From an uncultured Dokdonia sp. (lineage in GTDB: Bacteria > Bacteroidota > Bacteroidia > Flavobacteriales > Flavobacteriaceae), in contig CANNDF010000008.1 in assembly GCA_947503305.1 (NCBI GenBank), forward strand, positions 1 through 64,000: a stretch of DNA of 64,000 bases, in the 5' to 3' direction. Made by a program: the position numbers and the translations under genes. Below, in pieces: positions 976 to 63,966 of the stretch. Position 1 is the first letter of the stretch; every line of letters starts with the position of its first letter. The notes beneath the pieces were generated by a model, which saw only the letters and a list, made by a program, of their open reading frames with translations, was not told where the DNA came from and did not search any database.

Positions 976-2070
976 TTATATATAGTTGATGGGATTGGTA
1001 TTTTCTTCTGATAAAATGACTGCAAAATTACGAATTTTTTCTGTAAGATAATCGGCTATTAAGTTTTTTGTAAAACGCTCGCTTTCAAAATGCCCAATAT
1101 CTGCAATTAAAATTTGTTTTTCTGCCTTATAATAGTCGTGATATTTTAAATCTGACGTTACATAAGCGTCTGCATTATTTCTAATAGCTTGTGAAATTCC
1201 AAAGGCTCCACTTCCACCTAGAACGGCTACTTTCCTTATGGGCTTGTCTAATAATCCAGAATGTCTAATACCGCCCGTTTTAAAAATATCTTTAGTATAT
1301 TTTAAAAAATCTATTTCAGTCATAGGTTTTTTGAGATCTCCTATCATACCCATTCCTATATTTTGATGTGTATTTTGTAAGGCAGTAATTTCATAAGCTA
1401 CTTCTTCATATGGATGACTTGTAAAAAGCGCTTTAAGAATTTTGTTTTTAAGATGTTTTTCAAACGTAAGATTGATTTGTGTCTCTGCTTCTAGATGTTG
1501 TTTCCCAATCTCACCATAAGTTGGATTTGTATTTTCGCTTGCGCGAAAAGTGCCTTCTCCTTGAATATTGAAGCTACATTGATCATAATTTCCTATGTGA
1601 CCCGCTCCAACATTAAATAAAGCTTCTTTTACTTTTTTCGCGAAAGCGTGAGGGACATATGTGACAAGCTTATAAATGAAGTTTTCTTTTGGAATTAAAA
1701 TTCGAGTGTCTATAAGATCTAAAGCTTTTGCCATTCCATAATTTACTCCATGAAGAGCATTATCTAATGCAGTATGGATAGCATAAATTGCAATATCATT
1801 TTTTATAGCTTTGATTACTGCTCTTTCTACATAATTAGATCCTATTAGTTTTTTTAAACCTGAAAATATAATAGGGTGAAAACAAACAATTAGATTACAT
1901 TTTTTATCGATAGCTTCTTGAACTACATTTTCTAATGCATCATGTGCTACTAATATATTTGTCACTTTTTCTGATGAGTTCCCTACTAGTAAGCCTACAT
2001 TGTCAAAATCTTCTGCATAGGCTAGTGGAGCCCATTCTTCAAGGTCATCTATAATGTCTTGTATTGTCAT
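976..2070 (-). CDS. Nif3-like dinuclear metal centre protein (DUF34, YbgI type)
   Basis: 364 residues, the long form of the family with a PII-like insert in the middle (HPYEEVAYEI near residue 215). Metal-site motifs are visible: CFHPIIFSGLKKL, AIHTALDNALHGVN, and near the C-terminus SDLKYHDYYKA and DIGHFESERF. The family binds two metal ions; GTP cyclohydrolase-like or metal-handling roles have been proposed but the substrate is unsettled. It is co-transcribed with the zinc-ribbon-like gene, a pairing I recall as common in Bacteroidota. It carries one intact dispersed palindrome (read as HAFAKK) and one decayed copy (FRASEN). Confidence 0.9.
   Translation of the reverse strand: MTIQDIIDDLEEWAPLAYAEDFDNVGLLVGNSSEKVTNILVAHDALENVVQEAIDKKCNLIVCFHPIIFSGLKKLIGSNYVERAVIKAIKNDIAIYAIHTALDNALHGVNYGMAKALDLIDTRILIPKENFIYKLVTYVPHAFAKKVKEALFNVGAGHIGNYDQCSFNIQGEGTFRASENTNPTYGEIGKQHLEAETQINLTFEKHLKNKILKALFTSHPYEEVAYEITALQNTHQNIGMGMIGDLKKPMTEIDFLKYTKDIFKTGGIRHSGLLDKPIRKVAVLGGSGAFGISQAIRNNADAYVTSDLKYHDYYKAEKQILIADIGHFESERFTKNLIADYLTEKIRNFAVILSEENTNPINYI
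1536..1549. repeat. Decayed copy of the dispersed palindrome
   Basis: TCGCTTGCGCGAAAAG keeps both arms of CGCTTTCGCGAAAGCG but differs at two or three bases. It lies inside the Nif3-like gene, only about 100 bases from an intact copy, in a poorly conserved stretch. Confidence 0.5.
1636..1648. repeat. Dispersed palindrome, copy 1 (in Nif3-like gene)
   Basis: TTTCGCGAAAGCG: the full core and right arm, with the left arm replaced by T. Read on the minus strand it encodes AFAK in the segment PHAFAKKVKE. Confidence 0.85.
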
Positions 2071-2135
2071 ATAGTTAATGTTATTGTCAAATGTTGAATA
2101 ACTGGTTTGACATAAAGTAGTAAAGATAAAAATTA

Positions 2136-2143
2136 TACCTTCG
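2136..2143 (+). promoter_or_regulatory. Putative -7 element of lpxK
   Basis: TACCTTCG differs at one base from the Bacteroidota -7 element TAnnTTTG. It ends six bases before the lpxK ATG, so transcripts would be almost leaderless. I see no TTG at normal spacing upstream. Confidence 0.4.
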
Positions 2144-2149
2144 CAGTTT

Positions 2150-5373: not shown

Positions 5374-5403
5374 ATAAGTAGGTTATAACAACACGAATAT
5401 AAA

Positions 5404-6426
5404 TTAATTCTTCGAAATGTGTGAAATTAATTCAATAATTCGACTAGAATATCCTATCTCATTATCATACCAACCTATAATTTTTACCATTTTCCCAATA
5501 ACAGAAGTCATTTGAGAGTCAAAAATACATGAGTGTGTGTTTCCTATAATATCAACAGATACTAATGGTAAGTCCGTATACTCAACAATACCTTTTAAAT
5601 GTGTTTCAGAGGCGTTTTTAAGAGCTTGATTTACTTCTTTTATAGTGGTACTTTCTTTTACATTAAGTGTAATGTCTGTAAGAGATCCATTTGCAATAGG
5701 GACTCTGATACCACACCCTCCAATTGTATTTGAAAGGTGAGGAAATATTTTTGTCAACGCTTTTGCAGCTCCTGTAGTAGTAGGTACAATACTTTGTCCG
5801 GCAGCTCTGGCTCTTCTCAAATCCCTATGTGGTTGATCGTGTAGGCTTTGATCTGTAGTATAAGAATGTACCGTTGTGATATATGCTTGTTCAATACCGC
5901 ATAAGTCATCAAGTACACTGATCATAGGTGCTGCATTATTTGTAGTACATGACGCATTTGAAATAATAGTTTCGGTACCATCTAGAATATGATCATTCAC
6001 TCCGAGGACAACCATTTTAATCCCTTCATCTTGAGGTGGAACCGTAAGAATTACTTTTTTAGCACCGTTGGTAATATGGTGCTCAAGTGCATTTTTAGTT
6101 TTAAATTTTCCTGTACTTTCAATGACAATATCTGGATTTACAATGTGCCAAGGAATCTTTTCGATGTTTGGTTGATTAAATAAGGGTATTTCTTTGGAAT
6201 TTACTATAATGACTGATGGGTGAAGAGGGTTTTCGCTTTCGCGAAAGCGGACATCTGTGTTAAAAATACCATGAATACTGTCAAACTTTACTAAGTGACT
6301 CAAGGTATGTGCATTTGCTAAGTCATTAATTGCAACAACTTCTATATTTGGGTGTTTATGAAGTAGCCTAAAGAGATTACGACCTATACGCCCAAAGCCG
6401 TTAATTGCAACTTTGATAGAACTCAT
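5404..6426 (-). CDS. gap: Glyceraldehyde-3-phosphate dehydrogenase
   Basis: 340 residues. It oxidises glyceraldehyde 3-phosphate with NAD and phosphate. Visible are the NAD-binding start INGFGRIGR, the nucleophile Cys160 in NASCTTN, the phosphate-binding SYTTDQSLHD segment, the S-loop ARAAGQSIVPTTTGAA and the C-terminal WYDNEIGYSSR. Residues 60-65 (RFRESE) are encoded by the dispersed palindrome and fall in a variable surface region. It follows lipA by six bases. Flavobacteria often carry more than one GAPDH, so this could be a second isozyme rather than the main glycolytic one; the sequence does not decide. Confidence 0.95.
   Translation of the reverse strand: MSSIKVAINGFGRIGRNLFRLLHKHPNIEVVAINDLANAHTLSHLVKFDSIHGIFNTDVRFRESENPLHPSVIIVNSKEIPLFNQPNIEKIPWHIVNPDIVIESTGKFKTKNALEHHITNGAKKVILTVPPQDEGIKMVVLGVNDHILDGTETIISNASCTTNNAAPMISVLDDLCGIEQAYITTVHSYTTDQSLHDQPHRDLRRARAAGQSIVPTTTGAAKALTKIFPHLSNTIGGCGIRVPIANGSLTDITLNVKESTTIKEVNQALKNASETHLKGIVEYTDLPLVSVDIIGNTHSCIFDSQMTSVIGKMVKIIGWYDNEIGYSSRIIELISHISKN
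6234..6249. repeat. Dispersed palindrome, copy 2 (in gap)
   Basis: A perfect 16-base palindrome, CGCTTTCGCGAAAGCG. On the gap coding strand it is read as RFRES. Confidence 0.95.
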
Positions 6427-6432
6427 AGTGTA

Positions 6433-12694: not shown

Positions 12695-12960
12695 TGGGAG
12701 ATAAGGCGATCCATACCAAATTTTGGGACGCTTTTAAAAAAGTGAGTGAGACAGATCAGGAATTTCCTCCGGATGTATTACTTAAATTTTATGCATTGTA
12801 TAAGCAAGCTACACAAGAAAACACATTTAGTTACCAAGAAGGAGAACATGAGCTTGTAAGTGCATTTAAAATGAACGCACTATTACAAGTAAAAAGTTTA
12901 TCTGCAGATCAAGCTAAGAAAGCCTATATAAAACTTGCAAAGAAATATCTCAAAAACTAG
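12694..12960 (+). CDS. Acyl-CoA-binding protein
   Basis: 88 residues, the full length of a single ACBP domain. The helix 1 motif (FWDAFKKVSE) and the LLKFYALYKQAT segment with the conserved tyrosine and lysine that contact CoA are visible; the helix 4 end KAYIKLAKKYL fits too. It would buffer cytosolic long-chain acyl-CoA. Its start overlaps the psd stop by one base, so it belongs to the phospholipid operon. Its stop interlocks with the valS stop in a CTAG shared by both strands. Confidence 0.88.
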   Translation: MGDKAIHTKFWDAFKKVSETDQEFPPDVLLKFYALYKQATQENTFSYQEGEHELVSAFKMNALLQVKSLSADQAKKAYIKLAKKYLKN

Positions 12961-15590
12961 CTTAAACTAGCTAATCTTTTTTCAAGAGCTTCTACTTTTG
13001 CTTCTGCATCTGCTAATTTTTGTTTTTCAATAGCCACTACTTTTTCTGGAGCATTATTTACAAAACGTTCATTACTTAACTTCTTTGAAACGGATACTAA
13101 GAAACCTTTAGTGTATTTTAATTCGTCTTCTATTTTTGCAATTTCAGCCTCTATATCTATAGTACCGGTAAGAGGAATAAAATATTCATTAGACTTTACT
13201 CTAAAAGAAAGCGCTTTTTCCAAAGGTGTTTGTGTATTTTCAATCTCACTTATATTACCCAGTTTAGTAATGATAGAGTCAAAATCTGATGAAACCTTTT
13301 CGTTTGAAAGCAGGTGTAATTCGATAGAATCTTTAAAAGGAATATTTTTGCTTTTACGAATCGTTCTTATTCCAGAAATAACATGAGAAGCATACTCAAA
13401 ACCTTCAATAACTTTTGTGTCGATTGCTTCTTGCTCTGGCCAGTGATTGATAATAAGAGCTTCTTCAGAACTACGTTCTTTAATTGTTTGCCAGATCTCT
13501 TCTGTAGCAAAAGGTGCAAACGGGTGTAAAATACGTAGATTGTTTTCTAATGCATGTATAATATCATTATACGTCTTGCGATCTATAGGTTGTTGATATG
13601 CAGGTTTGGCAATTTCTAATAACCAACTACAGAAATCATCCCATATTAGTTTGTAGGTAGCCATTAATGCATCACTTATTCTATATTTAGAAAAATGATC
13701 TTCTATTTCTGCGAGTGTTTGTTGAAAACGTGCATGATACCATTCTATGCCTTTTTTACTGGATTCAGGTTGTTTAATGGTATCGCTTACTTCCCACCCT
13801 TTAATTAATCGGAAAGCATTCCATATTTTATTTACAAAGCTTTTCCCTTGATTACAAAGATCCTCATCAAACATGAGGTCATTTCCAGCTGCACTACTTA
13901 ACAAAAGTCCTACACGTACCCCATCTGCTCCATACTGTTCTATTAATTTTAATGCATCAGGAGAATTGCCAAGTTGTTTTGACATCTTACGACGTTGTTT
14001 GTCACGCACTAATCCAGTAAGATATACATTGTTAAAAGGACGTTCATCTGTGTATTCATATCCAGCAATAATCATACGGGCAACCCAGAAAAATAAAATA
14101 TCTGGACCAGTTACAAGATCATTAGTAGGGTAGTAGTATTTAAATTCTGCGTTGTCAGGATTACGTACTCCATCAAAAACACTCATAGGCCATAACCAAG
14201 AAGAAAACCAAGTGTCCAGTGCATCTTCATCTTGTCGTAAATCAGATAGTTGTATGTTGTCATTTTGAGTACGCTTTCGCGAAAGCGTTAACGCTTCCTC
14301 TATACTTTCGGCAACAACAAAATCTTCTTTACCGTCTCCATAGTAATATGCAGGAATTTGTTGCCCCCACCATAATTGACGCGAGATATTCCAATCACGG
14401 ATATTTTCCATCCAGTGACGATAGGTATTTTCAAATTTCTTAGGAAATAATTGAACTTGTCCAGTTTCTAAAACCGCTTTTATTGCTGGTTTTACAAGGT
14501 CTTCCATTTTTAAAAACCATTGATCAGAAAGTCTGGGTTCTATAACCGCTTTTGTGCGTTCTGAAGTTCCTACCTTATTTATGTGGTTTTCTGTTTTAAT
14601 AAGATGACCTTTTTGGTCTAGCTCTTTTTTGATGTTTTTACGAGCTTCAAATCGATCTTGACCTTCATAATGTAATCCAAAACTATTAAGAGACGCGTCT
14701 TCATTAAAAATATCTATAACTTCTAGATTGTGTTTATCTCCAAGAACTTTATCATTCTCATCATGAGCAGGAGTTACTTTAAGACAACCTGTTCCAAACT
14801 CAATATCAACATACTCGTCTTCTATAATTGGAATTACACGACCACATATTGGGACAATGGCTTTCTTTCCTTTTAAATGTGTAAAACGATCATCATTTGG
14901 GTTAATACAGATTGCAGTATCACCAAAAATAGTTTCTGGTCGTGTAGTAGCAATTGTTAAGAAGTCTTCTGAACCTTCGATTTGATAGTTAAGGTAATAG
15001 AGTAATCCCTGTCGCTCTTCATGAATAACTTCTTCATCAGAAAGCGTAGTTTTTGCTTCTGGATCCCAATTTACCATACGGTATCCTCGATAGATTTTTC
15101 CTTTATTGTAGAGATCTACAAAGGTTTTAATAACTGCTTCTGACATCTCAGGATCCATCGTAAACTTTGTGCGCTCCCAATCACAGGAGGCTCCAAGTTT
15201 TTTAAGTTGCTCAAGAATAACTCCTCCGTATTCTTCTTTCCATTCCCAGGCATGTTTTAAAAATTCTTCACGAGTAAGATCAGATTTGTTAATGCCCTGT
15301 TCGGCAAGTTTTGCAACTACCTTAGCTTCGGTAGCAATAGAGGCATGATCTGTGCCAGGAACCCAGCAGGCATTAAGACCAGTTAAACGAGCACGTCGTA
15401 TTAAAACGTCTTGTATTGTATTGTTGAGCATATGTCCCATATGAAGTACTCCCGTCACATTAGGAGGTGGAATAACGATGGTATATGGTTTTTTTTCATT
15501 TGGTGTTGAATGAAAATAATTGTGTTCCATCCAGTATGTATACCACTTATCTTCTACTTGTGAAGCGTCATATTTTGAAGCTATGCTCAT
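12957..15590 (-). CDS. valS: Valyl-tRNA synthetase
   Basis: 877 residues from the ATG at 15590 (MSIASKYDASQVEDKWY, the usual family start). An in-frame TTG at 15623 lies within a -7 element and is rejected. Class I signatures are PPPNVTGVLHMGHML (HIGH) and KMSKQLGNSPD (KMSKS). The editing domain (TTRPETIFGDTA) and the C-terminal coiled-coil tail are present. The dispersed palindrome encodes TLSRKR in the CP-insert region, where relatives vary. It ends inside the acyl-CoA-binding gene stop, with no terminator between. Confidence 0.97.
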   Translation of the reverse strand: MSIASKYDASQVEDKWYTYWMEHNYFHSTPNEKKPYTIVIPPPNVTGVLHMGHMLNNTIQDVLIRRARLTGLNACWVPGTDHASIATEAKVVAKLAEQGINKSDLTREEFLKHAWEWKEEYGGVILEQLKKLGASCDWERTKFTMDPEMSEAVIKTFVDLYNKGKIYRGYRMVNWDPEAKTTLSDEEVIHEERQGLLYYLNYQIEGSEDFLTIATTRPETIFGDTAICINPNDDRFTHLKGKKAIVPICGRVIPIIEDEYVDIEFGTGCLKVTPAHDENDKVLGDKHNLEVIDIFNEDASLNSFGLHYEGQDRFEARKNIKKELDQKGHLIKTENHINKVGTSERTKAVIEPRLSDQWFLKMEDLVKPAIKAVLETGQVQLFPKKFENTYRHWMENIRDWNISRQLWWGQQIPAYYYGDGKEDFVVAESIEEALTLSRKRTQNDNIQLSDLRQDEDALDTWFSSWLWPMSVFDGVRNPDNAEFKYYYPTNDLVTGPDILFFWVARMIIAGYEYTDERPFNNVYLTGLVRDKQRRKMSKQLGNSPDALKLIEQYGADGVRVGLLLSSAAGNDLMFDEDLCNQGKSFVNKIWNAFRLIKGWEVSDTIKQPESSKKGIEWYHARFQQTLAEIEDHFSKYRISDALMATYKLIWDDFCSWLLEIAKPAYQQPIDRKTYNDIIHALENNLRILHPFAPFATEEIWQTIKERSSEEALIINHWPEQEAIDTKVIEGFEYASHVISGIRTIRKSKNIPFKDSIELHLLSNEKVSSDFDSIITKLGNISEIENTQTPLEKALSFRVKSNEYFIPLTGTIDIEAEIAKIEDELKYTKGFLVSVSKKLSNERFVNNAPEKVVAIEKQKLADAEAKVEALEKRLASLS
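14272..14287. repeat. Dispersed palindrome, copy 3 (in valS)
   Basis: A perfect 16-base palindrome, extended to 18 by flanking A and T. It is read as TLSRKR on the valS strand. Confidence 0.95.
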
Positions 15591-15620
15591 AGTTTGGTCT
15601 AATTCTTGAATTATAGTTTG

Positions 15621-15628
15621 CAAAAGTA
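15621..15628 (-). promoter_or_regulatory. -7 promoter element of valS
   Basis: TACTTTTG on the minus strand matches TAnnTTTG and lies 30 bases before the valS ATG. No matching TTG is clear. Confidence 0.5.
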
Positions 15629-17553: not shown

Positions 17554-17595
17554 AGGATTCGTATACTCTCATAATTTACAAAAAGTGTTTTACAT

Positions 17596-17608
17596 TTTCG
17601 CGAAAGCG
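17596..17608. repeat. Dispersed palindrome, copy 4 (intergenic)
   Basis: TTTCGCGAAAGCG, core plus right arm, between the divergent protease and aminotransferase genes. Confidence 0.85.
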
Positions 17609-22163: not shown

Positions 22164-23279
22164 TTGGAGCCCATTCTTACGTATCTTTTTTATGTGTTTC
22201 TTGTAGTAGTAGTAATTAATATTACCTATTATCTTTTTTTCTTTTTATTCGCTTTCGCGAAAGCGAACTATATAAAGCCCAAAACATTTCCTCCAGTATC
22301 TATAATTGTCTGTTCAAAAAACGAAGCCGAAAATTTACGTAATAATATTCCTAAATGGCTTGATCAGGAATATGCAGAGTTTGAATTAATTTTAATTAAT
22401 GATGCTTCTTATGATGAGACAGAATCTGTTATAGAAGAATTTGCAAAAAAACACTCTTCAATTACGCAAGTACATGTAGAAAATAATGAAGCATTTTGGG
22501 GAAGTAAAAAATACGCTTTAACCCTAGGAATTAAAAAAGCTCAATATCCTTATTTGTTATTTACAGATGCCGATTGTTACCCTTCTTCAAGGTATTGGAT
22601 ACAGGAGATGGCCAAACATTTTGTGTCTACAAAAGAAATTGTTTTAGGATATGGAAGCTATGAAAAAGTAAAGAATTCTTGGCTTAATCAATTAATTAGA
22701 TTTGAAACAGTTATTACGGCAATGCAATATTTTAGCTATGCCATAGGCGGAAGGCCATATATGGGAGTAGGTCGTAATCTTGCCTATACATCACAGTTGT
22801 TCTATAAACAACGAGGTTTTATGGATCATATGAATGTCCAAAGCGGGGATGATGATCTTTTTGTAAATCAGGCTGCTACAAAAAAGAATGTAGCTATAAA
22901 TTTTGATCCTAAAGGATATACAATCTCTATACCTAAGATGAGTTTTGGATCATGGTATACACAAAAACGTAGGCATATAAGTGTTGCAAAACATTACAGA
23001 TTTTCTGATAAATTCTTTTTAGGTCTTTTTCATTTGAGTCAGGTATTGTTTTTTTTGCTCTTGACAGTATTATTAATTACCATGTGGGAGTGGCAACTCG
23101 TTCTTATAATCATAGGAATACGGTACCTTATTTCTTGGATAAGTGTAGGCGTAAGCTCATTTAAACTTAATGAAAAGGATATTCCACTTTTATACCCTAT
23201 ACATGAGTTGTTTTTATTATTTTTCCAATTGAGTATCTTTATCACAAACTTGATCTCAAAACCTACTCGTTGGAAATAA
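22164..23279 (+). CDS. Membrane glycosyltransferase, family 2
   Basis: 371 residues with a TTG start; no in-frame ATG is nearby. An N-terminal membrane helix (about 5-28) precedes a GT-A domain with VSIIVCSKNEAENL, the metal-binding FTDADCYPSS near residue 138, and the QSGDDDLFVNQ and QKRRH motifs of processive-type enzymes. Two or three C-terminal membrane helices follow. The dispersed palindrome encodes AFAKA at the end of the first helix. The acceptor is unknown. Its last ten bases overlap the next sigma factor gene. Confidence 0.87.
   Translation: MEPILTYLFYVFLVVVVINITYYLFFFLFAFAKANYIKPKTFPPVSIIVCSKNEAENLRNNIPKWLDQEYAEFELILINDASYDETESVIEEFAKKHSSITQVHVENNEAFWGSKKYALTLGIKKAQYPYLLFTDADCYPSSRYWIQEMAKHFVSTKEIVLGYGSYEKVKNSWLNQLIRFETVITAMQYFSYAIGGRPYMGVGRNLAYTSQLFYKQRGFMDHMNVQSGDDDLFVNQAATKKNVAINFDPKGYTISIPKMSFGSWYTQKRRHISVAKHYRFSDKFFLGLFHLSQVLFFLLLTVLLITMWEWQLVLIIIGIRYLISWISVGVSSFKLNEKDIPLLYPIHELFLLFFQLSIFITNLISKPTRWK
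22250..22265. repeat. Dispersed palindrome, copy 5 (in glycosyltransferase)
   Basis: A perfect 16-base palindrome; the symmetry extends to 20 bases (flanking TT and AA). Read as FAFAKAN. Confidence 0.95.
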
Positions 23280-27334: not shown

Positions 27335-28223
27335 ACTAGGAAGTTATCTTCATTACCATCTGATCGTATTTATCTGGGGTTTTACAGCAGTTTTGGGAGC
27401 GCTTATACAAATAGATGCTTTGCCCTTGGTGTGGTATCGTATGGGATTGGCCAGTATTTTTATTTACCTCTATATAAAAGTAAAAAAAATAGATAGTACA
27501 CTTTCAAAAAAAGATGCTGTTGTCTTTACTATTGCAGGGATTATCATAGCATTACACTGGGTGACTTTTTTTGAAGCTATTAAAGTGTCTAATGTTTCTA
27601 TTACGCTAGCAATGATGAGTACTGGTGCATTTTTTACAGCGTTATTAGAACCTATTTTTTATAAACGAAAACTCATTTGGTATGAATTGCTATTTGGCGC
27701 TATTGTGGTAGCAGCGCTTTATCTCATATTTGAAGTGCAACCTGAATATAGATTGGGAATAGGACTTGCATTACTATCTGCTTTTTTATCTGCTGTATTT
27801 ACCTTGATTAATGGAAAGATTATCCATAATCACAATCCAACAAAAATCTCATTTTATGAATTGTTAATAGGGGCATTATTTATTACAGTGTATTTCGCTT
27901 TCGCGAAAGCGGATACTTTTTTTTCAAAATCATTTTACATATTATCAGAAACAGATTGGATCTATCTTTTTATACTAGCATCTGTTTGTACAGCATATGC
28001 CTTTATTGCTGCTGTAAAAGTGATGCGCTATTTAAGCCCTTATACTGTGATGCTTACCATCAATCTAGAGCCTGTATATGGAATTTTACTTGCTTTTTTT
28101 GTTTTTGGTGATAAAGAAAAAATGAGTGTTGAGTTTTATTATGGGGCAGGTATTATACTAGCTGTAGTACTCGCAAATGGGGTATTAAAAAACAGTGACT
28201 ATTTTCTGAAGAAAAAATCATGA
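27321..28223 (+). CDS. EamA/DMT superfamily transporter
   Basis: 300 residues with ten predicted membrane helices in two EamA repeats (about 10-135 and 150-290). Substrate unknown; family members export amino acids, nucleosides or other metabolites. The loop between the second-half helices is encoded by the dispersed palindrome (FAFAKAD). It overlaps the LptF/G-type gene by 14 bases. Confidence 0.85.
   Translation: MQNAKLGSYLHYHLIVFIWGFTAVLGALIQIDALPLVWYRMGLASIFIYLYIKVKKIDSTLSKKDAVVFTIAGIIIALHWVTFFEAIKVSNVSITLAMMSTGAFFTALLEPIFYKRKLIWYELLFGAIVVAALYLIFEVQPEYRLGIGLALLSAFLSAVFTLINGKIIHNHNPTKISFYELLIGALFITVYFAFAKADTFFSKSFYILSETDWIYLFILASVCTAYAFIAAVKVMRYLSPYTVMLTINLEPVYGILLAFFVFGDKEKMSVEFYYGAGIILAVVLANGVLKNSDYFLKKKS
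27896..27911. repeat. Dispersed palindrome, copy 6 (in EamA gene)
   Basis: A perfect 16-base palindrome read as FAFAKAD, at a membrane-helix end as in the glycosyltransferase copy. Confidence 0.95.
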
Positions 28224-33631: not shown

Positions 33632-33645
33632 CGCTTTCGCGAAAG
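33632..33645. repeat. Dispersed palindrome, copy 7 (intergenic)
   Basis: CGCTTTCGCGAAAG; the right arm is cut short (AAAG then A). The rest of the 292-base intergenic stretch 33482-33773 is very AT-rich and shows nothing else I can name. Confidence 0.9.
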
Positions 33646-33773
33646 AAAAATACTTTTATATAGATACATATATAGCATAAAAAATTACGATATGTAAGTA
33701 TATTAATAGTTATCATTTATTTATTGTAATTATATATTCATATTTGGCCTATCAAATTATTAAAATAAAAATC

Positions 33774-35560: not shown

Positions 35561-35584
35561 TTTTTGCTTTCGCGAAAGCAAAAA
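35561..35584. repeat. Dispersed palindrome, copy 8 (intergenic, long form)
   Basis: GCTTTCGCGAAAGC flanked by TTTTT and AAAAA, so the dyad symmetry covers 24 bases although the outer C/G pair is replaced by T/A. It lies between asnB and gyrB. Confidence 0.9.
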
Positions 35585-35705: not shown

Positions 35706-37670
<1,965 letters not shown>

Positions 37671-44388: not shown

Positions 44389-44404
44389 CGCTTTCGCGAA
44401 AGCG
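44389..44404. repeat. Dispersed palindrome, copy 9 (intergenic)
   Basis: A perfect 16-base palindrome between the secDF terminator and ftsY. No T run follows, so it is unlikely to be a second terminator. Confidence 0.95.
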
Positions 44405-46719: not shown

Positions 46720-48072
46720 ATGCGTACAAAAACTCTCAAAAAGAACAAGATCAATGTAGTGACTTTAGGTTGTTCTAAGAATGTGTACGACAGTGAAGTA
46801 TTGATGGGACAACTTAAAGCCAATGGCAAAGAAGTCGCTCATGAGGAAGAAGGCAATATTGTTGTGATTAATACTTGTGGCTTTATTGAGAATGCTAAAG
46901 AAGAATCGGTTAATACCATTCTTGACTATGTAAAACAGAAAGAAGAGGGTGATGTGGATAAGGTATTTGTGACTGGTTGCTTGTCCGAACGTTATAAACC
47001 CGATTTACAAAAAGAAATTCCAGATGTAGATCAATATTTTGGAACTACAGAATTACCTGGATTATTAAAAGCATTAGGAGCCGATTATAAACATGAACTT
47101 ATAGGAGAACGTCTTACAACTACTCCAAAAAACTATGCGTACCTTAAAATAGCCGAAGGATGTGATCGGCCGTGTTCATTTTGTGCCATACCACTAATGC
47201 GAGGCAAGCATAAATCTAAACCTATTGAAAATTTGGTAATAGAAGCTGAGAAACTTGCTGCCAATGGTGTTTCTGAGTTGATTCTTATTGCACAAGACCT
47301 TACCTATTACGGACTTGATTTATATAAGAAACGCAACCTCTCTGAGTTACTGGAAGCGCTTGTAAAAGTAGAAGGGATAGAATGGATCCGTTTGCATTAT
47401 GCATTTCCTACTGGTTTTCCAATGGAAGTACTGGATGTGATGAAACGAGAATCTAAAATCTGTAATTATATAGATATTCCTTTGCAACATATTTCAGATT
47501 CTATTTTAAAATCCATGAGGCGCGGAACAACTATGGCAAAGACCAATGCGTTGTTAGATCGCTTTCGCGAAAGCGTACCCAGTATGACCATCCGTACAAC
47601 TTTGATTGTAGGATATCCAGGGGAGACAGAAGAAGATTTTCAAGTATTAAAACAATGGGTGAAGGATCAGCGGTTTGAACGTTTGGGATGTTTTACCTAT
47701 TCTCATGAAGAAAATACACATGCTTTTCATCTTGAAGATGATGTGCCTGAAGAGGTGAAAATGGATCGTGCCAATCAAATTATGGAGATACAGTCTCAAA
47801 TCTCTTGGGAACTCAATCAACAAAAGATAGGGCAGGAATTCAAAATAGTAGTCGATCGTAAAGAAGGTAATTATTTTATTGGTCGTACCGAGTTTGATAG
47901 CCCAGATGTAGATAATGAAGTGTTGATAGATGCTACAAAATATTATCTAAAAACGGGAGGATACACAATGGTAAAAGTAATAGAAGCTGAAGATTTTGAT
48001 CTGTATGCGGAGCCTCTGGAAATTATAGAAAGGCCTAAACCTATGCATGCAAAATCTAAAACTAATAGTTAA
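46720..48072 (+). CDS. rimO: Ribosomal protein S12 methylthiotransferase RimO
   Basis: 450 residues. RimO is a radical SAM enzyme that methylthiolates the conserved Asp of ribosomal protein S12. The UPF0004 domain carries C18, C53 and C87 for the auxiliary cluster; the SAM cluster is C148, C152, C155 (GCDRPCSFC). IPLQHISDSILKSMRRG and TTLIVGYPGETEEDF are family hallmarks, and a C-terminal TRAM domain follows. LDRFRESVPSM is encoded over the dispersed palindrome, yet matches normal family residues. RimO rather than MiaB is favoured by the N-terminal LGCSKNVYDSE. Confidence 0.95.
   Translation: MRTKTLKKNKINVVTLGCSKNVYDSEVLMGQLKANGKEVAHEEEGNIVVINTCGFIENAKEESVNTILDYVKQKEEGDVDKVFVTGCLSERYKPDLQKEIPDVDQYFGTTELPGLLKALGADYKHELIGERLTTTPKNYAYLKIAEGCDRPCSFCAIPLMRGKHKSKPIENLVIEAEKLAANGVSELILIAQDLTYYGLDLYKKRNLSELLEALVKVEGIEWIRLHYAFPTGFPMEVLDVMKRESKICNYIDIPLQHISDSILKSMRRGTTMAKTNALLDRFRESVPSMTIRTTLIVGYPGETEEDFQVLKQWVKDQRFERLGCFTYSHEENTHAFHLEDDVPEEVKMDRANQIMEIQSQISWELNQQKIGQEFKIVVDRKEGNYFIGRTEFDSPDVDNEVLIDATKYYLKTGGYTMVKVIEAEDFDLYAEPLEIIERPKPMHAKSKTNS
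47560..47575. repeat. Dispersed palindrome, copy 10 (in rimO)
   Basis: A perfect 16-base palindrome read as RFRES, in a conserved helix where those residues are ordinary. Confidence 0.95.
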
Positions 48073-53233: not shown

Positions 53234-54829
53234 ATGCCAGCCGACTGTATATCGTACCATAAAACCGGATATTTTTCTAAGCTTATTTGTAACTACCTTG
53301 ATAATGATAAAGCTTTAAAATCATTTTATCATCGGTTTCCAATAATAGAAAATTTTGATGCTCAGATACTAGAAAAAGGGCAGTGGTTTCCTAAGGATTC
53401 CCGTAAAGTGCTTGTAGAAGTATTACAATCTCAATATGAAGGTATAGACACCTCAGAAGCAACACTCAATAATATAAAATTGTTATCTCAGGAAACTAGT
53501 TTTACCATTACAACAGGGCATCAACTTAATTTGTTTACAGGACCTTTATATTTTCTGTATAAGATTATACATACGATTACGCTTTCGCGAAAGCTAAAAC
53601 AACAACACCCTACTTATGATTTTGTGCCTATATATTGGATGGCAACAGAAGATCATGATTTTGAGGAGATTAATTATTTCCGTTTCCGTGGAAAGAAGGT
53701 TCAATGGAATAGGGAAGCAGGAGGTGCTGTGGGAGAGCTGTCAACAGATGGACTAGATGCTGTTTTTGAATTATTTGCTACTCAACTAGGAGGATCACAA
53801 AATGCAATTTCTTTAAAAAGCCTTTTTGAAAATGCATACCTCAAACATGATACACTTGCCACTGCAACTCGATATATAGCCAATGAATTATTTAAGGAAT
53901 ATGGATTGATTATTATAGACGGTAATGATACTTCCTTAAAATCTCTTTTTACACCGTATGTAAAATATGAGTTACTGGAACAAATATCTCATAAAAAAGT
54001 TACCCAACAGACAGAAAAACTTACAACTTTAGGCTATCCAGCACAAGTACACCCTCGAGAGATTAATCTCTTTTATATAATTAAAGGAATACGTGAACGT
54101 ATTATAAAAGAAGGGACTATTTATAGTGTTAACAATACAGAAATTCGTTTTACAGAAAGCGAGATTTTATTAGAACTCGAAAAGCACCCAGAACGATTTT
54201 CTCCCAATGCTTTGTTACGACCTCTCTATCAAGAGGTGATTTTACCTAACCTGTGTTATATTGGAGGGGGAGGAGAACTTGCCTATTGGTTTCAACTTAA
54301 AGATTATTTTGAGGCTATTGATGTACCTTTTCCTATGTTGCTTCTTCGTAATTCTGCATTGTTACGTACAGAAAAACAAAAACAAAAAACAGATCGTTTA
54401 GGTGTGTCTTTGCCTCAGTTGTTTTTAAAACAAAATGAACTTGTAAATCAAAAAATACGAACTGTCTCAAATATAAATATTGATTTTACAGAACAACGTG
54501 CTTTCCTCAAAGAACAATTTAAAGCAATGCATCTTATTGCCGAGGAGACAGACGCTTCTTTTATCGGTGCTGTAAATGCACAAGAAGTGAAGCAACTTAA
54601 AGGTTTAGATCATTTAGAATCAAGGTTGTTACGGGCTCAAAAACGTAAATTGAGTGATCATGTACAACGTCTTGTGGATCTTCAAAATGAAATGTTTCCA
54701 TTGCAAAGTCTTCAGGAGCGTAATACCAATTTTGCAGAGTTTTATCTAGAATTTGGTGATACTTTGATTCCATCTATACTAGATAATCTTGATCCTATGA
54801 ATTCAGAATTTACAGTAATTACATTATAG
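53234..54829 (+). CDS. bshC: Bacillithiol biosynthesis cysteine-adding enzyme BshC
   Basis: 531 residues. BshC adds cysteine to GlcN-malate, the last step of bacillithiol synthesis. Family segments: TTGHQLNLFTGPLYFLYK, PIYWMATEDHDFEEIN, GGGGELAYWFQLKDYF and a C-terminal coiled coil (about 440-490). So the organism very likely uses bacillithiol as its low-molecular-weight thiol, although bshA and bshB are not in this window. The dispersed palindrome encodes TLSRKL in an alpha-helix. Confidence 0.95.
   Translation: MPADCISYHKTGYFSKLICNYLDNDKALKSFYHRFPIIENFDAQILEKGQWFPKDSRKVLVEVLQSQYEGIDTSEATLNNIKLLSQETSFTITTGHQLNLFTGPLYFLYKIIHTITLSRKLKQQHPTYDFVPIYWMATEDHDFEEINYFRFRGKKVQWNREAGGAVGELSTDGLDAVFELFATQLGGSQNAISLKSLFENAYLKHDTLATATRYIANELFKEYGLIIIDGNDTSLKSLFTPYVKYELLEQISHKKVTQQTEKLTTLGYPAQVHPREINLFYIIKGIRERIIKEGTIYSVNNTEIRFTESEILLELEKHPERFSPNALLRPLYQEVILPNLCYIGGGGELAYWFQLKDYFEAIDVPFPMLLLRNSALLRTEKQKQKTDRLGVSLPQLFLKQNELVNQKIRTVSNINIDFTEQRAFLKEQFKAMHLIAEETDASFIGAVNAQEVKQLKGLDHLESRLLRAQKRKLSDHVQRLVDLQNEMFPLQSLQERNTNFAEFYLEFGDTLIPSILDNLDPMNSEFTVITL
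53580..53594. repeat. Dispersed palindrome, copy 11 (in bshC)
   Basis: CGCTTTCGCGAAAGC, missing only the final G. Read as TLSRKL. Confidence 0.92.
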
Positions 54830-57757: not shown

Positions 57758-57843
57758 TATATGGTTTTTTAGTTGCTACAATTTAGAAAAAATACAGCAA
57801 AGGAGCAATACTTCAGATAAAAGAGGGTATCGCATCTATAGGA

Positions 57844-58148
57844 TTATGCAAAAAACCAGTAATCGATTATCGGTTTTTTATTCCATTGATTTAATAATTT
57901 TTGGATTTCCTTTTTTCCATCTGGCGAAGAGACTACAATCATAATTTGGGGGTTGTCAATATCTGGAAGACTTTTATAATCTTGCATACGTACATCATAG
58001 ATGTCTTTCCCTATTTGTTTTTGATTGTTAGATACCCAATGAAAAGTGTCTTGGTAAGACTGTAAGATTTTGGCCATATCCTTACCATTACGACCAGCTC
58101 CCCAAAGTAATAAAGGTCTATTATAATCACGATCTATCTCATAAAAAA
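57844..58148 (-). pseudogene. Frameshifted C-terminal part of the glycosyltransferase
   Basis: In the next frame after the glycosyltransferase stop, translation reads FFYEIDRDYNRPLLLWGAGRNG and continues without a stop through MAKILQSYQDTFHW to the end at 57844. This is about 98 residues, joining smoothly to the upstream gene if one base is added to the seven-A run at 58143-58149. WGAGRNGKD is a Rossmann-like glycine motif. Its own first ATG (58077) would give only 77 residues and is probably not a real start. A hairpin at 57850-57879 overlaps its 3' end. Confidence 0.8.
57850..57879 (-). terminator. Terminator overlapping the end of the glycosyltransferase tail
   Basis: AAAAAACC and GGTTTTTT enclose a partly paired 14-base centre containing AATCGATT. 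On the minus strand it ends in six T, four bases past the stem and just before the stop codon. Confidence 0.5.
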
Positions 58149-58859
58149 ACGCATTTTTAGATCAAAATAACGATTGTCTTTGTATTCCTCCCAGGTTCTA
58201 GATATACGATTTGAACGATCTCGCCAATGATGTAAAATGGTATCAATACCTATAATTTTTAACCTATGGCGATACATTCTAAAACATAAATCATAGTCTT
58301 CAGGATAGATAAGCGGGTTAAATGCATCTATAGCATCTAGATCATTTTTGTGAAGTAACCAGCAATGTGATGGGATGACACATTCTTTATAGATTTGTTC
58401 ATAATGAGTGCCTGTGCGTGCTACTTCATTCAGCCATTGTTCGTATTTGATAAAACCGTCTCCTACAACTCCTACATCAACAAAATGTTGAGTACCTCCA
58501 GCAATCACATGTCCTTCCCCGTATTGTAGCCATGTATCAACAAGAACTTGTAACTTATAATCAGGCATTTTGTCATCCGAGTCCATACGGTTGATGAGTG
58601 TTCCCTTTACTTCTCGATATCCGTATTGTAGTGTCGGGATTAGTTTTGGAGTGTCACTGTGAAACACGCGTATTCTTGAGTCCGCTTTCGCGAAAGCTTC
58701 CAAAATCTCAGGAGTTGCATCGGTACTATGATCATTTACCGCAATGAGTTCCCAGTTTTGATACGTTTGTGCAATGATAGAATTAATACATGCATGTAAA
58801 TAGGGGGCAGTATCTTTTACTGCCATAATAATAGAAACAAGAGGCGGGTTTGTTGTCAT
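58134..58859 (-). CDS. Glycosyltransferase family 2, C-terminally truncated by frameshift
   Basis: 241 residues from the ATG at 58859 (MTTNPPLVSIIMAVKDTAPY), eight bases after the epimerase stop. The GT-A domain is complete: NDHSTDATPE, RMDSDDKMP as the metal motif, and YPEDYDLCFRMYRH near 195. The frame ends at RFFMR, but the natural continuation is in the next frame after a run of seven T (minus strand). One extra base would give a single product of about 338 residues. EAFAKADSRI is encoded over the dispersed palindrome. The acceptor is unknown; pairing with a nucleotide-sugar epimerase suggests surface polysaccharide or glycoprotein synthesis. Confidence 0.85.
   Translation of the reverse strand: MTTNPPLVSIIMAVKDTAPYLHACINSIIAQTYQNWELIAVNDHSTDATPEILEAFAKADSRIRVFHSDTPKLIPTLQYGYREVKGTLINRMDSDDKMPDYKLQVLVDTWLQYGEGHVIAGGTQHFVDVGVVGDGFIKYEQWLNEVARTGTHYEQIYKECVIPSHCWLLHKNDLDAIDAFNPLIYPEDYDLCFRMYRHRLKIIGIDTILHHWRDRSNRISRTWEEYKDNRYFDLKMRFFMR
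58683..58697. repeat. Dispersed palindrome, copy 12 (in glycosyltransferase)
   Basis: CGCTTTCGCGAAAGC, last G changed to T. Read as AFAKAD on the coding strand. Confidence 0.92.
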
Positions 58860-58866
58860 AGTTGTA

Positions 58867-59871
58867 TTACTTCCAAGAATCAGGGAGGTGCTTAGTGATT
58901 TCGATATTTTTAAATGTACTACTTTCTCTAGCACCGTGTTGTCTTACCCAAGCGGCTGTTTTAGAAAGCCCTTCTGTTAGGGGTGTTTCAGGTTTTGGAG
59001 AAAAAAGAGTTTTGAATATAGTGTGATCAGAATAAGCATGTACGACTTCTTCACGTTGTTCCAGATAGTGTATTTGCGGAGAACTTTTCATGGCAGAACT
59101 CACTTCCGTGGTAAGTTTTTTTACCGTTATTGGAGTGTCACTACCTATATTAAAAGTTTGATTATATGCATTTGCAAAAGTGGCACTTTGCGCAATATAG
59201 GGAGCAATATCATCGATATACGTAAAAGCACGACTTTGTAAACCATCTCCAAAAACAGTGAGAGGCTCCCCCTTTAATAATTGATTCATAAAAATGCCTA
59301 CAACATTACGATACTTATCTCCTATATTTTGATGCGGGCCATAGACATTATGAGGTCTAAATATCACATAATTTAAGCCAAATAGTTTACGTGCATTGTG
59401 AAGATCCATCTCTACAGCATATTTAGCAATTCCATAAGGATCTTCTGGTTTAGGGATTTGAGACTCTTTAAGTGGAAGTTCTTGAGTACCATATACGGCT
59501 ATAGATGATGTAAATACAAAGCATTTAATATTATGAAGTACAGATGCATTAATTAGATTAATACTACCTATAAGATTGTTTTCATAGTTAAATTTTCTGA
59601 TGAAATGACTCAAGCCTTCGGCTGCATATGCGGCAAAGTGATACACATATGAAAATGTATAGGTTTCAAAAAGTGTGTTAATAAGTACAGTATCTGTAAT
59701 AGATCCTTTGTGAAAGATAGCTTCGGGGTGAACATTTTCTATAAAACCTCCCGATAAATCATCTAATACAATCACTTTGTAGGAATCATGTATTAAGTAA
59801 TTAACGACATGGGACCCTATAAATCCTGCGCCTCCTGTAACCAGTACGGTTTCTTTTTGGAATGTATTCAA
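58867..59871 (-). CDS. NAD-dependent epimerase/dehydratase (UDP-glucose 4-epimerase-like)
   Basis: 334 residues with a TTG start; the reading frame has a stop 18 bases upstream and no ATG. It is an extended short-chain dehydrogenase: GGAGFIGSHVV for NAD, VLDDLSGGF, the catalytic triad with TSSIAVYG and YGIAKYA (YxxxK), and RPHNVYGPHQNIGDKYRNVV. It should act on a nucleotide sugar; the exact one is not readable. Eight bases separate it from the glycosyltransferase. Confidence 0.9.
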   Translation of the reverse strand: MNTFQKETVLVTGGAGFIGSHVVNYLIHDSYKVIVLDDLSGGFIENVHPEAIFHKGSITDTVLINTLFETYTFSYVYHFAAYAAEGLSHFIRKFNYENNLIGSINLINASVLHNIKCFVFTSSIAVYGTQELPLKESQIPKPEDPYGIAKYAVEMDLHNARKLFGLNYVIFRPHNVYGPHQNIGDKYRNVVGIFMNQLLKGEPLTVFGDGLQSRAFTYIDDIAPYIAQSATFANAYNQTFNIGSDTPITVKKLTTEVSSAMKSSPQIHYLEQREEVVHAYSDHTIFKTLFSPKPETPLTEGLSKTAAWVRQHGARESSTFKNIEITKHLPDSWK

Positions 59872-59894
59872 TGAAATCTCTTTTCTGCCTTAGA

Positions 59895-59902
59895 CAAAAA
59901 TA
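59895..59902 (-). promoter_or_regulatory. -7 element of the epimerase-glycosyltransferase unit
   Basis: TATTTTTG on the minus strand fits TAnnTTTG, 23 bases before the TTG start. Confidence 0.4.
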
Positions 59903-59952
59903 GGGGATTTTACTTGAAAGAAATTAACAAAAACGAGACAGTATACTATACC

Positions 59953-61089: not shown

Positions 61090-61180
61090 GGGTAGTATTC
61101 TAATAATAGATGTTCTTTTCAAAAGGCAGAAATATATAACAAGCCCCCTTTATTATAGTAAAAGCCGATAGAATACTACT

Positions 61181-61651: not shown

Positions 61652-61660
61652 TGAGGTAAC

Positions 61661-62500
61661 TTAAATAAGATTTAAACGATATTTTACATAACTACGCGCA
61701 AGAAGACTCACTTTTACATAATCTGGTACGCGAATTCTACTATTTTTAATCTCGGCCGAAGGTACACGCTTTAGTTTAGTTAGCAATTTTTTATAATAAC
61801 GATATGCGGTATATACTCCAAATTTTGCTTCTATAGGAAGTTTGTGAATTCCAGAGAGACCTTTTCTAAAATCGTCTTCAATTTCATCAATGATACGTTT
61901 TTTAGAAGCTTCATCCAGTTCAAGAAGATTTGTATTTGGAAAATAAGTTCTACTCAGACCTTCAAAATCTGCTTTTAAATCCCTAAGAAAATTTACTTTT
62001 TGAAAGGCAGACCCTAGACTCATAGCACTTTCTTTAAGTTCTTCATAACGATCTTTGTCTCCATTAACAAATACAGTAAGACACATAAGACCTACAACAT
62101 CTGCAGACCCATAAATGTATTCTTTGTATTCTTGATCTGTGAGGTACTCAGATTTAGAAAGGTCAAGACGCATACTTTTCATAAATGCATCAATAAGATG
62201 GTGTTTGATATCATACTTATGTACTGTTTCTTGAAAGGCATTTAGAATAGGGTTTAAGCTTATTTTATCGACAAGTGCGTTTTTTAAATCTTCTTCAAAT
62301 CGATTAAAAAGGACTGGTTTGTCATAGTCATGAAAAGAATCTACAATTTCATCTGCAAATCGTACAAAGCCATAGATATTATAGATATCCTGTCGTATAA
62401 GAGGGGATAACATTTTAGTGGCACTTGCAAAAGAAGTGCTGTAAGACTTGGTTACAGTCTTAGCACATTTTCTAGATACGGTGTCAAAAAGAGATTTCAT
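61661..62500 (-). CDS. crtB: Phytoene synthase CrtB
   Basis: 279 residues. It condenses two geranylgeranyl diphosphates into phytoene. The trans-isoprenyl motifs are present as YGFVRFADEIVDSFHD (first Asp-rich motif) and GSAFQKVNFLRDLKADFEGLSRTYFP (second motif). SYSTSFASATKML near the N-terminus is also typical. It is five bases after crtI and nine before crtZ, so the three form one transcript. Confidence 0.95.
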   Translation of the reverse strand: MKSLFDTVSRKCAKTVTKSYSTSFASATKMLSPLIRQDIYNIYGFVRFADEIVDSFHDYDKPVLFNRFEEDLKNALVDKISLNPILNAFQETVHKYDIKHHLIDAFMKSMRLDLSKSEYLTDQEYKEYIYGSADVVGLMCLTVFVNGDKDRYEELKESAMSLGSAFQKVNFLRDLKADFEGLSRTYFPNTNLLELDEASKKRIIDEIEDDFRKGLSGIHKLPIEAKFGVYTAYRYYKKLLTKLKRVPSAEIKNSRIRVPDYVKVSLLARSYVKYRLNLI

Positions 62501-62505
62501 TAGAT

Positions 62506-63966
62506 TTATTTGTTTTTTGTGATGAGTTGAGCCGTTAGTTTTCCAGAAATTAATGAAGGGGGGACACCAGGTCCTGGAACAGTTAGTTGTCCAGTAAAAT
62601 ACAAATTTTTCACCTTTTTACTTTTTAATTTTGGTCTAAGGAATGCAGTTTGTAATAAGGTATTTGCCATACCATATGCATTTCCTTTATAAGAATTGTA
62701 ATCTTTTATAAAATCATTTACGCAAAAAGAAGCTTTGAAGTTTACAAAATCTAGAACTTTTTGATCTGTTAATTTTTCGAAGCGATCCATTATGATATCA
62801 AAGTATTGTTGACGTAATTCTGGAGTGTCTTCAAGTCCCGGAGCTAATGGGATTAAAAAGATCCCAGCTTCTTTACCTTCGGGAGCGGCACTTGAATCTG
62901 TCATTGATGGAAAACTAGCGTAAAATAATGGCTTTTCAGGCCATTGTGGATTGTCATAGATTGCCTCTGCATGTTGTGCAAAGTCTACATCAAAGAATAG
63001 TGTATGATGATCTACATTTTTTAATTTTTTATTGAATCCTACATAAAACAGTAGTGATGAAGGGGCAAAGGTTTTACTATCCCAATATTTTTCAGAATAT
63101 TGACGTAAGTGTTGAGGTAGTAATGTTTCGGTATGATGGTAGTCTGCGCCCGAGAGTATTAAGTCCGCTTTCGCGAAAGCGTTATTAACTTCAATCCCAG
63201 TTGCAATAACTCCTTCTGTTTGAATGGAGGTTACATCACTATGAGTGTGGATATTTACTCCCAGTTCTTGAGCTAAAGTAGCCATTCCTTGAATTACAGA
63301 ATACATTCCGTCTTTAGGGTGAAAGGTGCCTATACCAAAATCGGCATAGTTCATAAAGCTATAAAATGCAGGAGTATTACTAGGTTTTGCTCCTAAAAAT
63401 AATACTGGAAATTCAAGAATGGCTACTAGCCTAGGGTTATTAAATTCTTTACGTACTTCTTTTGCGATGGTACTAAAAAATTTTCCGATTCGAGTCATCG
63501 TTTGTGGAGTGACGAGTTCAAGAGGTGATACTCCAGGACGATATACTAAGTCTTTTATAGCAATGTCATAATTACTTTGGGCATCATCTATAAATTTTTG
63601 AAGTTTTATGGCACTTCCTGATTCTTCTTCTTCAAATACTTTTTTAATTTTTTCTAAAGTGTCTCCTATAGTAATGTAATCTTTTTTTCCAAAGTACACA
63701 CGATATGCAGGGCCTAGTTTAATGAGTTCGTAGTAATCGCTAGGGGACTTGCCAAAATCTGAAAAAAAACGTTCAAAAACATCTGGCATCCAATACCATG
63801 TAGGTCCAATGTCAAAGGTATACCCATCTCTTTTATATTGTCTAGCTCTACCACCTATTGTTTCATTTTTTTCATAGATATGAACATTATGCCCCTCCTT
63901 AGCAAGATAGCAGGCTGCCGCTAGCGAAGAAAATCCAGAACCTATGATTGCAATTTTTTTAGGCAT
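62506..63966 (-). CDS. crtI: Phytoene desaturase CrtI
   Basis: 486 residues from the ATG at 63966 (MPKKIAIIGSGFSSLAAACYLA); an in-frame TTG at 63978 is rejected. CrtI desaturates phytoene stepwise to lycopene using FAD. The dinucleotide site is IGSGFSSLAAACYLAKEGHNVHIYEKN, then GGRARQYKRDGYTFDIGPTWYWMPD, and the C-terminal GQLTVPGPGVPPSLISGKL motif. AFAKADLILSGADY is encoded over the dispersed palindrome just before the conserved GADY. It is the first visible gene of the crt operon; its promoter is at or beyond the window edge. Confidence 0.95.
   Translation of the reverse strand: MPKKIAIIGSGFSSLAAACYLAKEGHNVHIYEKNETIGGRARQYKRDGYTFDIGPTWYWMPDVFERFFSDFGKSPSDYYELIKLGPAYRVYFGKKDYITIGDTLEKIKKVFEEEESGSAIKLQKFIDDAQSNYDIAIKDLVYRPGVSPLELVTPQTMTRIGKFFSTIAKEVRKEFNNPRLVAILEFPVLFLGAKPSNTPAFYSFMNYADFGIGTFHPKDGMYSVIQGMATLAQELGVNIHTHSDVTSIQTEGVIATGIEVNNAFAKADLILSGADYHHTETLLPQHLRQYSEKYWDSKTFAPSSLLFYVGFNKKLKNVDHHTLFFDVDFAQHAEAIYDNPQWPEKPLFYASFPSMTDSSAAPEGKEAGIFLIPLAPGLEDTPELRQQYFDIIMDRFEKLTDQKVLDFVNFKASFCVNDFIKDYNSYKGNAYGMANTLLQTAFLRPKLKSKKVKNLYFTGQLTVPGPGVPPSLISGKLTAQLITKNK
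63166..63181. repeat. Dispersed palindrome, copy 13 (in crtI)
   Basis: A perfect 16-base palindrome read as AFAKAD. Confidence 0.95.

Follow-up and report, generated by a model that had tools for sequence, protein, structure and literature searches.

An evenly spread palindrome in Dokdonia and related Flavobacteriaceae suggests an undescribed genome-wide signal, perhaps guiding DNA repair or exchange

We analysed a 64-kb window (35% G+C) at the start of contig CANNDF010000008.1 from an uncultured Dokdonia (Flavobacteriaceae) genome, hereafter G000 (4.26 Mb in 57 contigs), which carries 13 exact copies of the 10-bp core TTTCGCGAAA. The core is the centre of a near-invariant 14-bp palindrome, GCTTTCGCGAAAGC, which is strongly over-represented, evenly spaced, conserved as DNA and bordered on both sides by strands that turn G/T-rich as they run into the site. 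Together, these features hint at a genome-wide signal that has not been described before and that may guide DNA repair or exchange. Our favoured account, held tentatively, is of an orientation-free signal that a dimeric protein may read and that would direct homologous recombination, either in repairing chromosomal breaks or in transformation. We know of few genome-wide sequence marks in bacteria, and no description of this one appeared in open-licence PubMed Central (PMC) papers, judged mostly by title and the start of the abstract. The motif belongs to a cultured marine group, numbers in the hundreds per genome and up to roughly a thousand, stays intact at a cost to protein sequence and bears a strand signature that hints at mechanism; for Bacteroidota, its reader protein, once found, would reveal either a new control of recombination or uptake or a new way of organising the chromosome.

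Copy number, distribution and shape of the motif

Genome G000 contains 663 copies of the core against 13 of a reversed control pattern, and in 144 kb of that genome Markov models of orders 1-3 expect 0.09-0.12 copies where 26 were seen, ruling out chance or base composition as their source. The original prediction, made from the window alone, had estimated that such a word should occur well under once by chance, and had named a genome-wide count and a count in relatives as checks; both came out in its favour. All 17 other Dokdonia genomes examined are rich in the motif (481-1195 copies each), so the copies are not confined to the window. A second motif-rich genus, g11, which we take to be probably Nonlabens, holds 319-893 copies in each of its 23 genomes, bringing the motif-rich set to all 18 Dokdonia examined, all 23 g11 and one genome of a third genus, g259. 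Below, G016 stands for a Dokdonia genome, G280 for a g11 genome and G461 for the sole g259 genome here.

Wider scans delimited this distribution. Among 397 genomes of the family searched with a 12-mer, six were rich (445-917 copies), all from these three genera, and the other 391 had at most 21; among 246 genomes of the order searched with the 14-mer, the runner-up to G000 had 6 copies. The non-carrier Flavobacteriaceae that we sampled have few copies, often grouped on islands. Across 80 named valS loci (3-23 kb), four sites lie in L078, one in each of six others and none in 73, with none or one in the loci of Polaribacter, Winogradskyella, Tenacibaculum, Aquimarina, Maribacter, Gramella and Flavobacterium. 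L078, from Dokdonia sp. MAG-19, is the best match to the window's valS (85% identity), has its four sites within 7.1 kb and gives a valS row identical to that of a further Dokdonia genome, G002. We found no genus-specific palindrome of like kind (at least 3 copies, more than 30-fold enrichment) in 73 of the 80 loci, the seven shorter than 12 kb having been left out, in a scan that sparse motifs would escape. A quick valS tree placed the carriers in two positions; a tree constraining them to one clade was not rejected (p 0.69) and was likelier than the split, for this one gene. Two origins of the motif were set aside on that result, and the valS sequences allow a single origin in the carriers. 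One Dokdonia stretch, L034 (G016:C1:40001-60000), holds four sites despite a G+C content of 28.5% in a genome of 38% G+C.

The shape of the site was read from 26 core copies in G000 (the 144 kb above), 139 in G016, 115 in G280 and 11 in G461. The 14-mer surrounds the core in 23/26, 117/139, 112/115 and 8/11 of these, respectively. Full-length 16-mers with one mismatch differ at the outermost base in 10 of 10 cases in G000, 19 of 27 in G016 and 14 of 22 in G280; G461 has no one-mismatch copies. An invariant core between variable arms had been proposed; the stretch that is nearly invariant extends over 14 bp rather than 10. The consensus is symmetric over 22-24 bp, approximately KTACGCTTTCGCGAAAGCGTAM in Dokdonia and KTTCGCTTTCGCGAAAGCGAAM in g11, with flanks in two dialects, TACGC in Dokdonia versus TTCGC in g11. 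The half-site CGCTTTCG hardly ever occurs apart from the palindrome: counting both strands, CGAAA comes next in 37/37 cases in G000, 231/239 in G016 and 213/228 in G280, and more weakly in G461 (12/17). In the DNA examined, the word TCGCGA lies inside the motif in 26 of its 32 occurrences in G000, 139 of 157 in G016, 115 of 175 in G280 and 11 of 23 in G461. Each half carries about 17-18 bits of information within 12 bp, which by our reckoning far exceeds what one site per several kb needs; farther than about 12 bp from the centre only a weak composition signal is left.

The two halves of a copy match each other at about the rate calculated for independent columns, and below it at some outer positions. 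A symmetric consensus whose halves vary almost independently is to be expected of a 14-bp palindrome that a dimeric protein would recognise in duplex DNA, and not of a hairpin. We found neither the longer unit nor the restriction to intergenic DNA of a REP/BIME or transposon family, as copies in open reading frames (ORFs) occur in all frames; the view that the motif is not a mobile element is borne out for the motif in itself.

Within the window, the 14-mer is present in 10 of the 13 copies and the full 16-mer, CGCTTTCGCGAAAGCG, in 7. All 13 predicted cores were recovered; the positions first given for them mark the right sites, but are mostly starts of the longer arm, 3 bases before the core. 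Two decayed copies, near 1536 and 31146, are also present and imperfect. The 13 sites, with the strand of each gene in brackets, are as follows.

Site 1, 1633..1648, core start 1636: TTTTTTCGCGAAAGCG, left arm decayed; in a Nif3-like gene, 976-2070 (-); peptide AFAKK
Site 2, 6234..6249, core start 6237: full 16-mer; in a GAPDH gene, 5404-6426 (-); peptide RFRES
Site 3, 14272..14287, core start 14275: full 16-mer; in valS, 12957-15623 (-); peptide TLSRKR
Site 4, 17593..17608, core start 17596: CATTTTCGCGAAAGCG; intergenic, between 16213-17553 (-) and 17664-18854 (+)
Site 5, 22250..22265, core start 22253: full 16-mer; in a glycosyltransferase-like gene, 22164-23279 (+); peptide AFAKA
Site 6, 27896..27911, core start 27899: full 16-mer; in a transporter-like gene, 27321-28223 (+); peptide AFAKA
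Site 7, 33632..33647, core start 33635: CGCTTTCGCGAAAGAA; intergenic, between 32942-33481 (-) and 33744-35444 (+)
Site 8, 35565..35580, core start 35568: TGCTTTCGCGAAAGCA; intergenic, between 33744-35444 (+) and 35727-37670 (+)
Site 9, 44389..44404, core start 44392: full 16-mer; intergenic, about 60 bp past the stop of 41341-44328 (+)
Site 10, 47560..47575, core start 47563: full 16-mer; in rimO, 46720-48072 (+); peptide RFRES
Site 11, 53580..53595, core start 53583: CGCTTTCGCGAAAGCT; in bshC, 53234-54829 (+); peptide LSRK
Site 12, 58683..58698, core start 58686: CGCTTTCGCGAAAGCT; in a glycosyltransferase-like gene, 58134-58934 (-); peptide AFAKA
Site 13, 63166..63181, core start 63169: full 16-mer; in a crtI-family gene, 62506-63978 (-); peptide AFAKA

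Conservation, placement and strand asymmetry

We examined conservation in aligned valS rows and, with the site soft-masked so that it could not seed them, in alignments of the stretches around valS. One valS site, site 3 of the window, occupies a single codon position in 24 rows (15 Dokdonia genomes, L078 and 8 g11), where it encodes TLSRK; other Flavobacteriaceae mostly have LAKE, LAQE or similar there, with no net length change between the flanking conserved residues. The site stands at the same place in G461, two bases over, and there encodes AFAKA, so that carriers of three genera share one place and the frame differs in G461. An old site may have persisted while the frame shifted locally, or another may have arisen at the same spot; on either account selection acts on the DNA and not on the peptide. 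A second valS site, with peptide AFAKA, is present in 13 Dokdonia rows. On these alignments, the motif is kept even where the protein sequence changes.

Across nine Dokdonia lineages, the core was kept in 86 of 94 ordered pairs at a flank identity of at least 0.75, against a chance level of 8-15%, in 34 of 53 pairs at 0.70-0.75 and in 38 of 74 below that. Five of the 13 window sites could be aligned, because the relatives' stretches reach no farther than the part of the window near valS: site 3 persists in 13/13 relatives and site 5 in 7/7; site 1 was kept in only 1/4, site 2 in 5/10 and site 6 in 0/2, indicating that sites are gained or lost between distant species. At a flank identity of at least 0.70, the core was kept in 419 of 472 pairs in Dokdonia, 56 of 67 in g11 and 70 of 100 for islands in motif-poor hosts; this lower value, for islands that were chosen for having a site, fits host-dependent upkeep.

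With ORFs called by simple rules, 16/26 copies in G000, 69/139 in G016, 78/115 in G280 and 8/11 in G461 lie inside ORFs, in all three frames, with AFAKA the commonest peptide. Intergenic copies are nonetheless in excess, numbering 10/26, 70/139, 37/115 and 3/11 in the same order versus 2.3, 12, 9.9 and 1.4 expected. Those between tandem genes sit a median of 25-41 bp past the upstream stop codon, are closer to the stop in 64 of 83 cases, and have an A-rich, not T-rich, downstream side. Between divergent genes, the density of copies is half that of the other classes in G016 and roughly equals that between tandem genes in G280; in G000 it is not the lowest of the classes.

Spacing was measured on the sites listed, 100 of the 663 in G000, 67 in G016 and 92 in G280. 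The trimmed coefficient of variation of the gaps among them is 0.47, 0.57 and 0.60, respectively, versus 0.87 for random placement, and very short gaps among them make up 3-6% versus 22% at random. Counts per 20 kb are likewise under-dispersed, with a variance-to-mean ratio of 0.38 over 20 evenly placed stretches of G016 and 0.16 over 13 of G280, excluding the first 3 and first 6 stretches, respectively, which are adjacent. Density does not obviously rise or fall along the samples of G016 and G280, in which the replication origin and terminus were not located, and the overall frequency is about one site per 3-7 kb. The suggestion that selection or a sequence-specific process maintains a chromosome-wide mark is thus supported by the counts, the relatives, the site-by-site conservation and the even spacing. 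Four long site-free gaps interrupt the pattern: they hold a type IV secretion system coupling protein (G000), a relaxase (G280), a secretin cluster (G280) and, in the fourth (G000), no Pfam match among three proteins tried. The secretin/pilus-type cluster, in L370 (G280:C4:332001-352000), includes two very large ORFs (1793 and 1546 aa) within a 20-kb gap and was perhaps acquired recently.

As had been pointed out, a perfect dyad cannot give direction, and this is true of the core; each side nevertheless has its own strand-asymmetric flank. On both sides, over some 30 bp, the strand that runs 5' to 3' into the site is rich in G and T and poor in C. At positions -13 to -20, the frequency of C in pooled stretches of G000 and G016 is 0.084 at coding and 0.055 at intergenic sites versus 0.179 at random places; in G280 it is 0.080 and 0.036 versus 0.198. 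GC skew over the same positions reaches +0.52 in G000, +0.59 in G016, +0.62 in G280 and +0.28 in G461, as well as +0.45 at island sites and +0.40 in chosen virus records. More than 40 bp out the skew is low for the most part (at most +0.10 in G016, +0.07 in G280 and +0.15 at island sites), and in G461 it is already -0.17 at -31 to -40. The 4-mers TGTG, GGGT, GTGG, GTTG and GGTT are enriched in the flanks. Nothing comparable was seen at -13 to -20 around eleven other palindromes of the same DNA, among them CGCG (1972 halves) and those copies of TCGCGA that lie outside the site (156 halves), and chance matches to the motif in GC-rich viruses are flat there.

Candidate roles of the motif

A role in recombination or uptake leads our interpretation because the inward G/T-rich strands are those that would become 3' single strands if DNA were processed at the site. 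We propose that a dimeric protein would bind the 14-bp palindromic core, within its 22-24-bp consensus, in double-stranded DNA, and that the signal would steer homologous recombination, either as a palindromic analogue of Chi in break repair or in the processing of incoming DNA during transformation. Processing at the site would leave both strands that run 5' to 3' into it as 3' single strands, and these would be the G/T-rich ones, a composition favoured by RecA. One study reports that RecA prefers TGG repeats, which resemble Chi (PMC3763553).

The motif resembles the Chi sites of RecBCD and AddAB in being over-represented, in occurring once per few kb and in having a G/T-rich neighbourhood 5' of the site on the prospective 3'-tail strand, as does Chi in E. 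coli, where spacing of a few kb is also seen. A fuller version of this proposal, doubtful when taken as a whole, would have a bidirectional Chi-like dyad, set in G/T-rich islands on both arms about once per 3-7 kb and read by a dimeric protein, fixed a single time in an ancestor shared by Dokdonia, its sister genus and the Nonlabens-like genus, and carried by phages and metal-resistance islands moving among hosts.

Several observations weigh against a recombination signal read by a dimer. The Chi sites known so far have short, asymmetric sequences that follow the direction of replication and are recognised in single-stranded form, unlike a 14-bp palindrome without polarity. No binding protein, recombinase or nuclease has been tied to the site, AddAB/RecBCD and ComEC not having been searched for. 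At the fourth position out from the core, the halves match a little more often than independence would give (67 copies versus 57 expected in G016, 66 versus 56 in G280), and the pair counts used for conservation are not independent, coming from related genomes and ordered pairs. Only the inner flank is well controlled, because the chance matches in GC-rich viruses are themselves slightly skewed at -21 to -40 (GC skew +0.07 and +0.11, TA skew +0.15 and +0.18). At the two valS positions, skew is higher in rows with the site than in rows without it, but the contrast is weak, at 0.35 versus 0.19 and 0.06 versus -0.06, in related rows. The G/T-rich flank could, moreover, be an extended protein footprint rather than the trace of a single strand.

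In Haemophilus and Neisseria, uptake sequences build up in the genome because transformation is biased toward DNA that bears them. An uptake sequence of this kind, with competent cells favouring site-bearing DNA, would account for several of the same features, and we regard it as unlikely on the whole. The motif shares with the uptake signal sequences (USS) of Pasteurellaceae and the DNA uptake sequences (DUS) of Neisseriaceae a high, genome-wide and even frequency, intergenic enrichment past stop codons alongside genic copies that impose amino acids, and genus dialects, here the two flank forms. It is missing from two Nonlabens phages and from the four long gaps, two of them with conjugation genes. 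Riemerella, a related genus, prefers its own DNA in transformation and needs ComEC, DprA, ComF and proteins of unknown function for it, according to two reports (PMC7965970, PMC8459023). On the other hand, known uptake sequences are non-palindromic and have many one-mismatch copies, whereas the Dokdonia motif is a perfect palindrome with few near-misses. Of the genomes tested, no more than 8 of the 23 rich in the motif, and 5 of the 17 others, have the pilus/secretion ATPase family PF00437 over the cut-off, so that the known uptake machine is not common to the carriers; type IV pilus uptake was rejected on the absence of this family from the remaining 15 carriers. The only paper found to mention both Dokdonia and natural transformation concerns, by its title, another organism.

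The site might instead organise the chromosome, with an architectural protein (Noc-, MatP- or SMC-loader-like) bound every 3-7 kb or so and the loss of a site harmful anywhere. Even spacing, the lack of an obvious density trend in G016 and G280, strong site-by-site conservation and symmetry all suit this explanation, as does the likeness to parS, Noc-binding sites and matS, which are palindromic or nearly so and bind dimeric chromosome proteins. Those for Noc and MatP are, however, far fewer than the hundreds of copies here and uneven between origin and terminus, against the flat-looking density of our samples; some virus records hold the motif too, and the inward G/T asymmetry is left unexplained. 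We therefore give a nucleoid or segregation site limited credence. ParB is present in all 40 genomes tested (23 motif-rich, 17 others), once in 34 and twice in 6, and in an alignment of 20 ParB sequences, inspected by eye, no helix-turn-helix residue separated 13 carriers from 7 others. The g11 genomes keep canonical parS words separately: the 12-mer TTTCACGTGAAA, the canonical parS core, has 1-3 copies in 9/9 g11 genomes, and in 7/9 two of them lie about 1.89 kb from each other; it occurs in 2/13 Dokdonia, 0/1 g259 and 3/17 motif-poor genomes. ParB/parS is thus an unlikely partner, even though ParB_N scores looked lower, by eye, in motif-rich genomes. Positions of TTTCACGTGAAA include G280:C4:2611163 and 2613055, and G283:C1:1525834 and 1527727, among others.

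The highly iterated palindrome HIP1 of cyanobacteria (GCGATCGC) had been offered as the closest analogy, and as a description it serves well: both are short, GC-rich, lineage-specific palindromes with very many genic and intergenic copies, and TCGCGA lies mostly inside the Dokdonia motif, except in G461. The two differ in sequence and phylum, and the near-invariance over 14 bp, the 22-24-bp consensus and the symmetric G/T-rich flanks are particular to the motif described here. A HIP1-like role in repair, with an orphan DNA methyltransferase as partner, is improbable, given that PF00145 (5-methylcytosine) and PF01555 (N4/N6) each occur in 10 of 23 carriers, against 12 and 7, respectively, of 17 others; neither tracks the motif, and methylase partners were dropped for these two families, the classes searched. 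The analogy with HIPs thus fails, for these families, in the cognate methyltransferase associated with them. The terms Flavobacter, Bacteroid and Dokdonia are absent from Elhai 2015 (PMC4390886). Least probable is a transcription terminator or RNA hairpin element: tandem intergenic copies do cluster just past stop codons, yet the many coding copies in all three frames, the little or no covariation of the halves and an A-rich side in place of a T-tract led us to reject it.

Islands and viruses carrying the motif

In other genera, the motif comes in blocks that share the same distances between sites; often, two sites are separated by 933 bp. The block in G137, the genome in which genes were read, lies among genes for RND efflux, outer-membrane efflux, a multicopper oxidase and a copper ATPase; the remaining islands were assigned by DNA similarity or spacing. 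Blocks in G382, G368, G359 and G603 match that of G137 at 74-95% over the longest aligned pieces, and G357 (C3:32333-94752) has at least 17 sites in 62 kb. Motif-bearing copper or heavy-metal islands were located in G137 (L015, L016), G382 (L020, L021), G368 (L024, L025), G359 (L023), G603 (L022), G029 (L018, L019), G485 (C1:1156267) and G357 (C3). Such islands, in several Flavobacteriaceae genera, are probably transfers from motif-rich hosts, and site blocks of this kind offer a practical marker for DNA that probably derives from such hosts.

The two Nonlabens phages contain no motif in about 35.7 kb each. Twelve chosen IMG/VR records (G660-G671), picked from at least 120 stretches mostly for having several sites and AT-rich DNA, hold 2-5 sites in 12-40 kb, and on this sequence evidence the motif is also acquired by some viruses. 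A scan of the proteins of five virus records gave portal, head, terminase or tail genes in three, and in the other two nothing beyond families of unknown function. In some tailed-phage contigs (L243, L263, L192 and records G660-G671), the motif has similar G/T-rich inner flanks. Outside the copper island of G485, two further sites lie in ORFs of the beta-lactamase family and with a guanylate-cyclase domain (L017, G485:C1:2415000-2430000).

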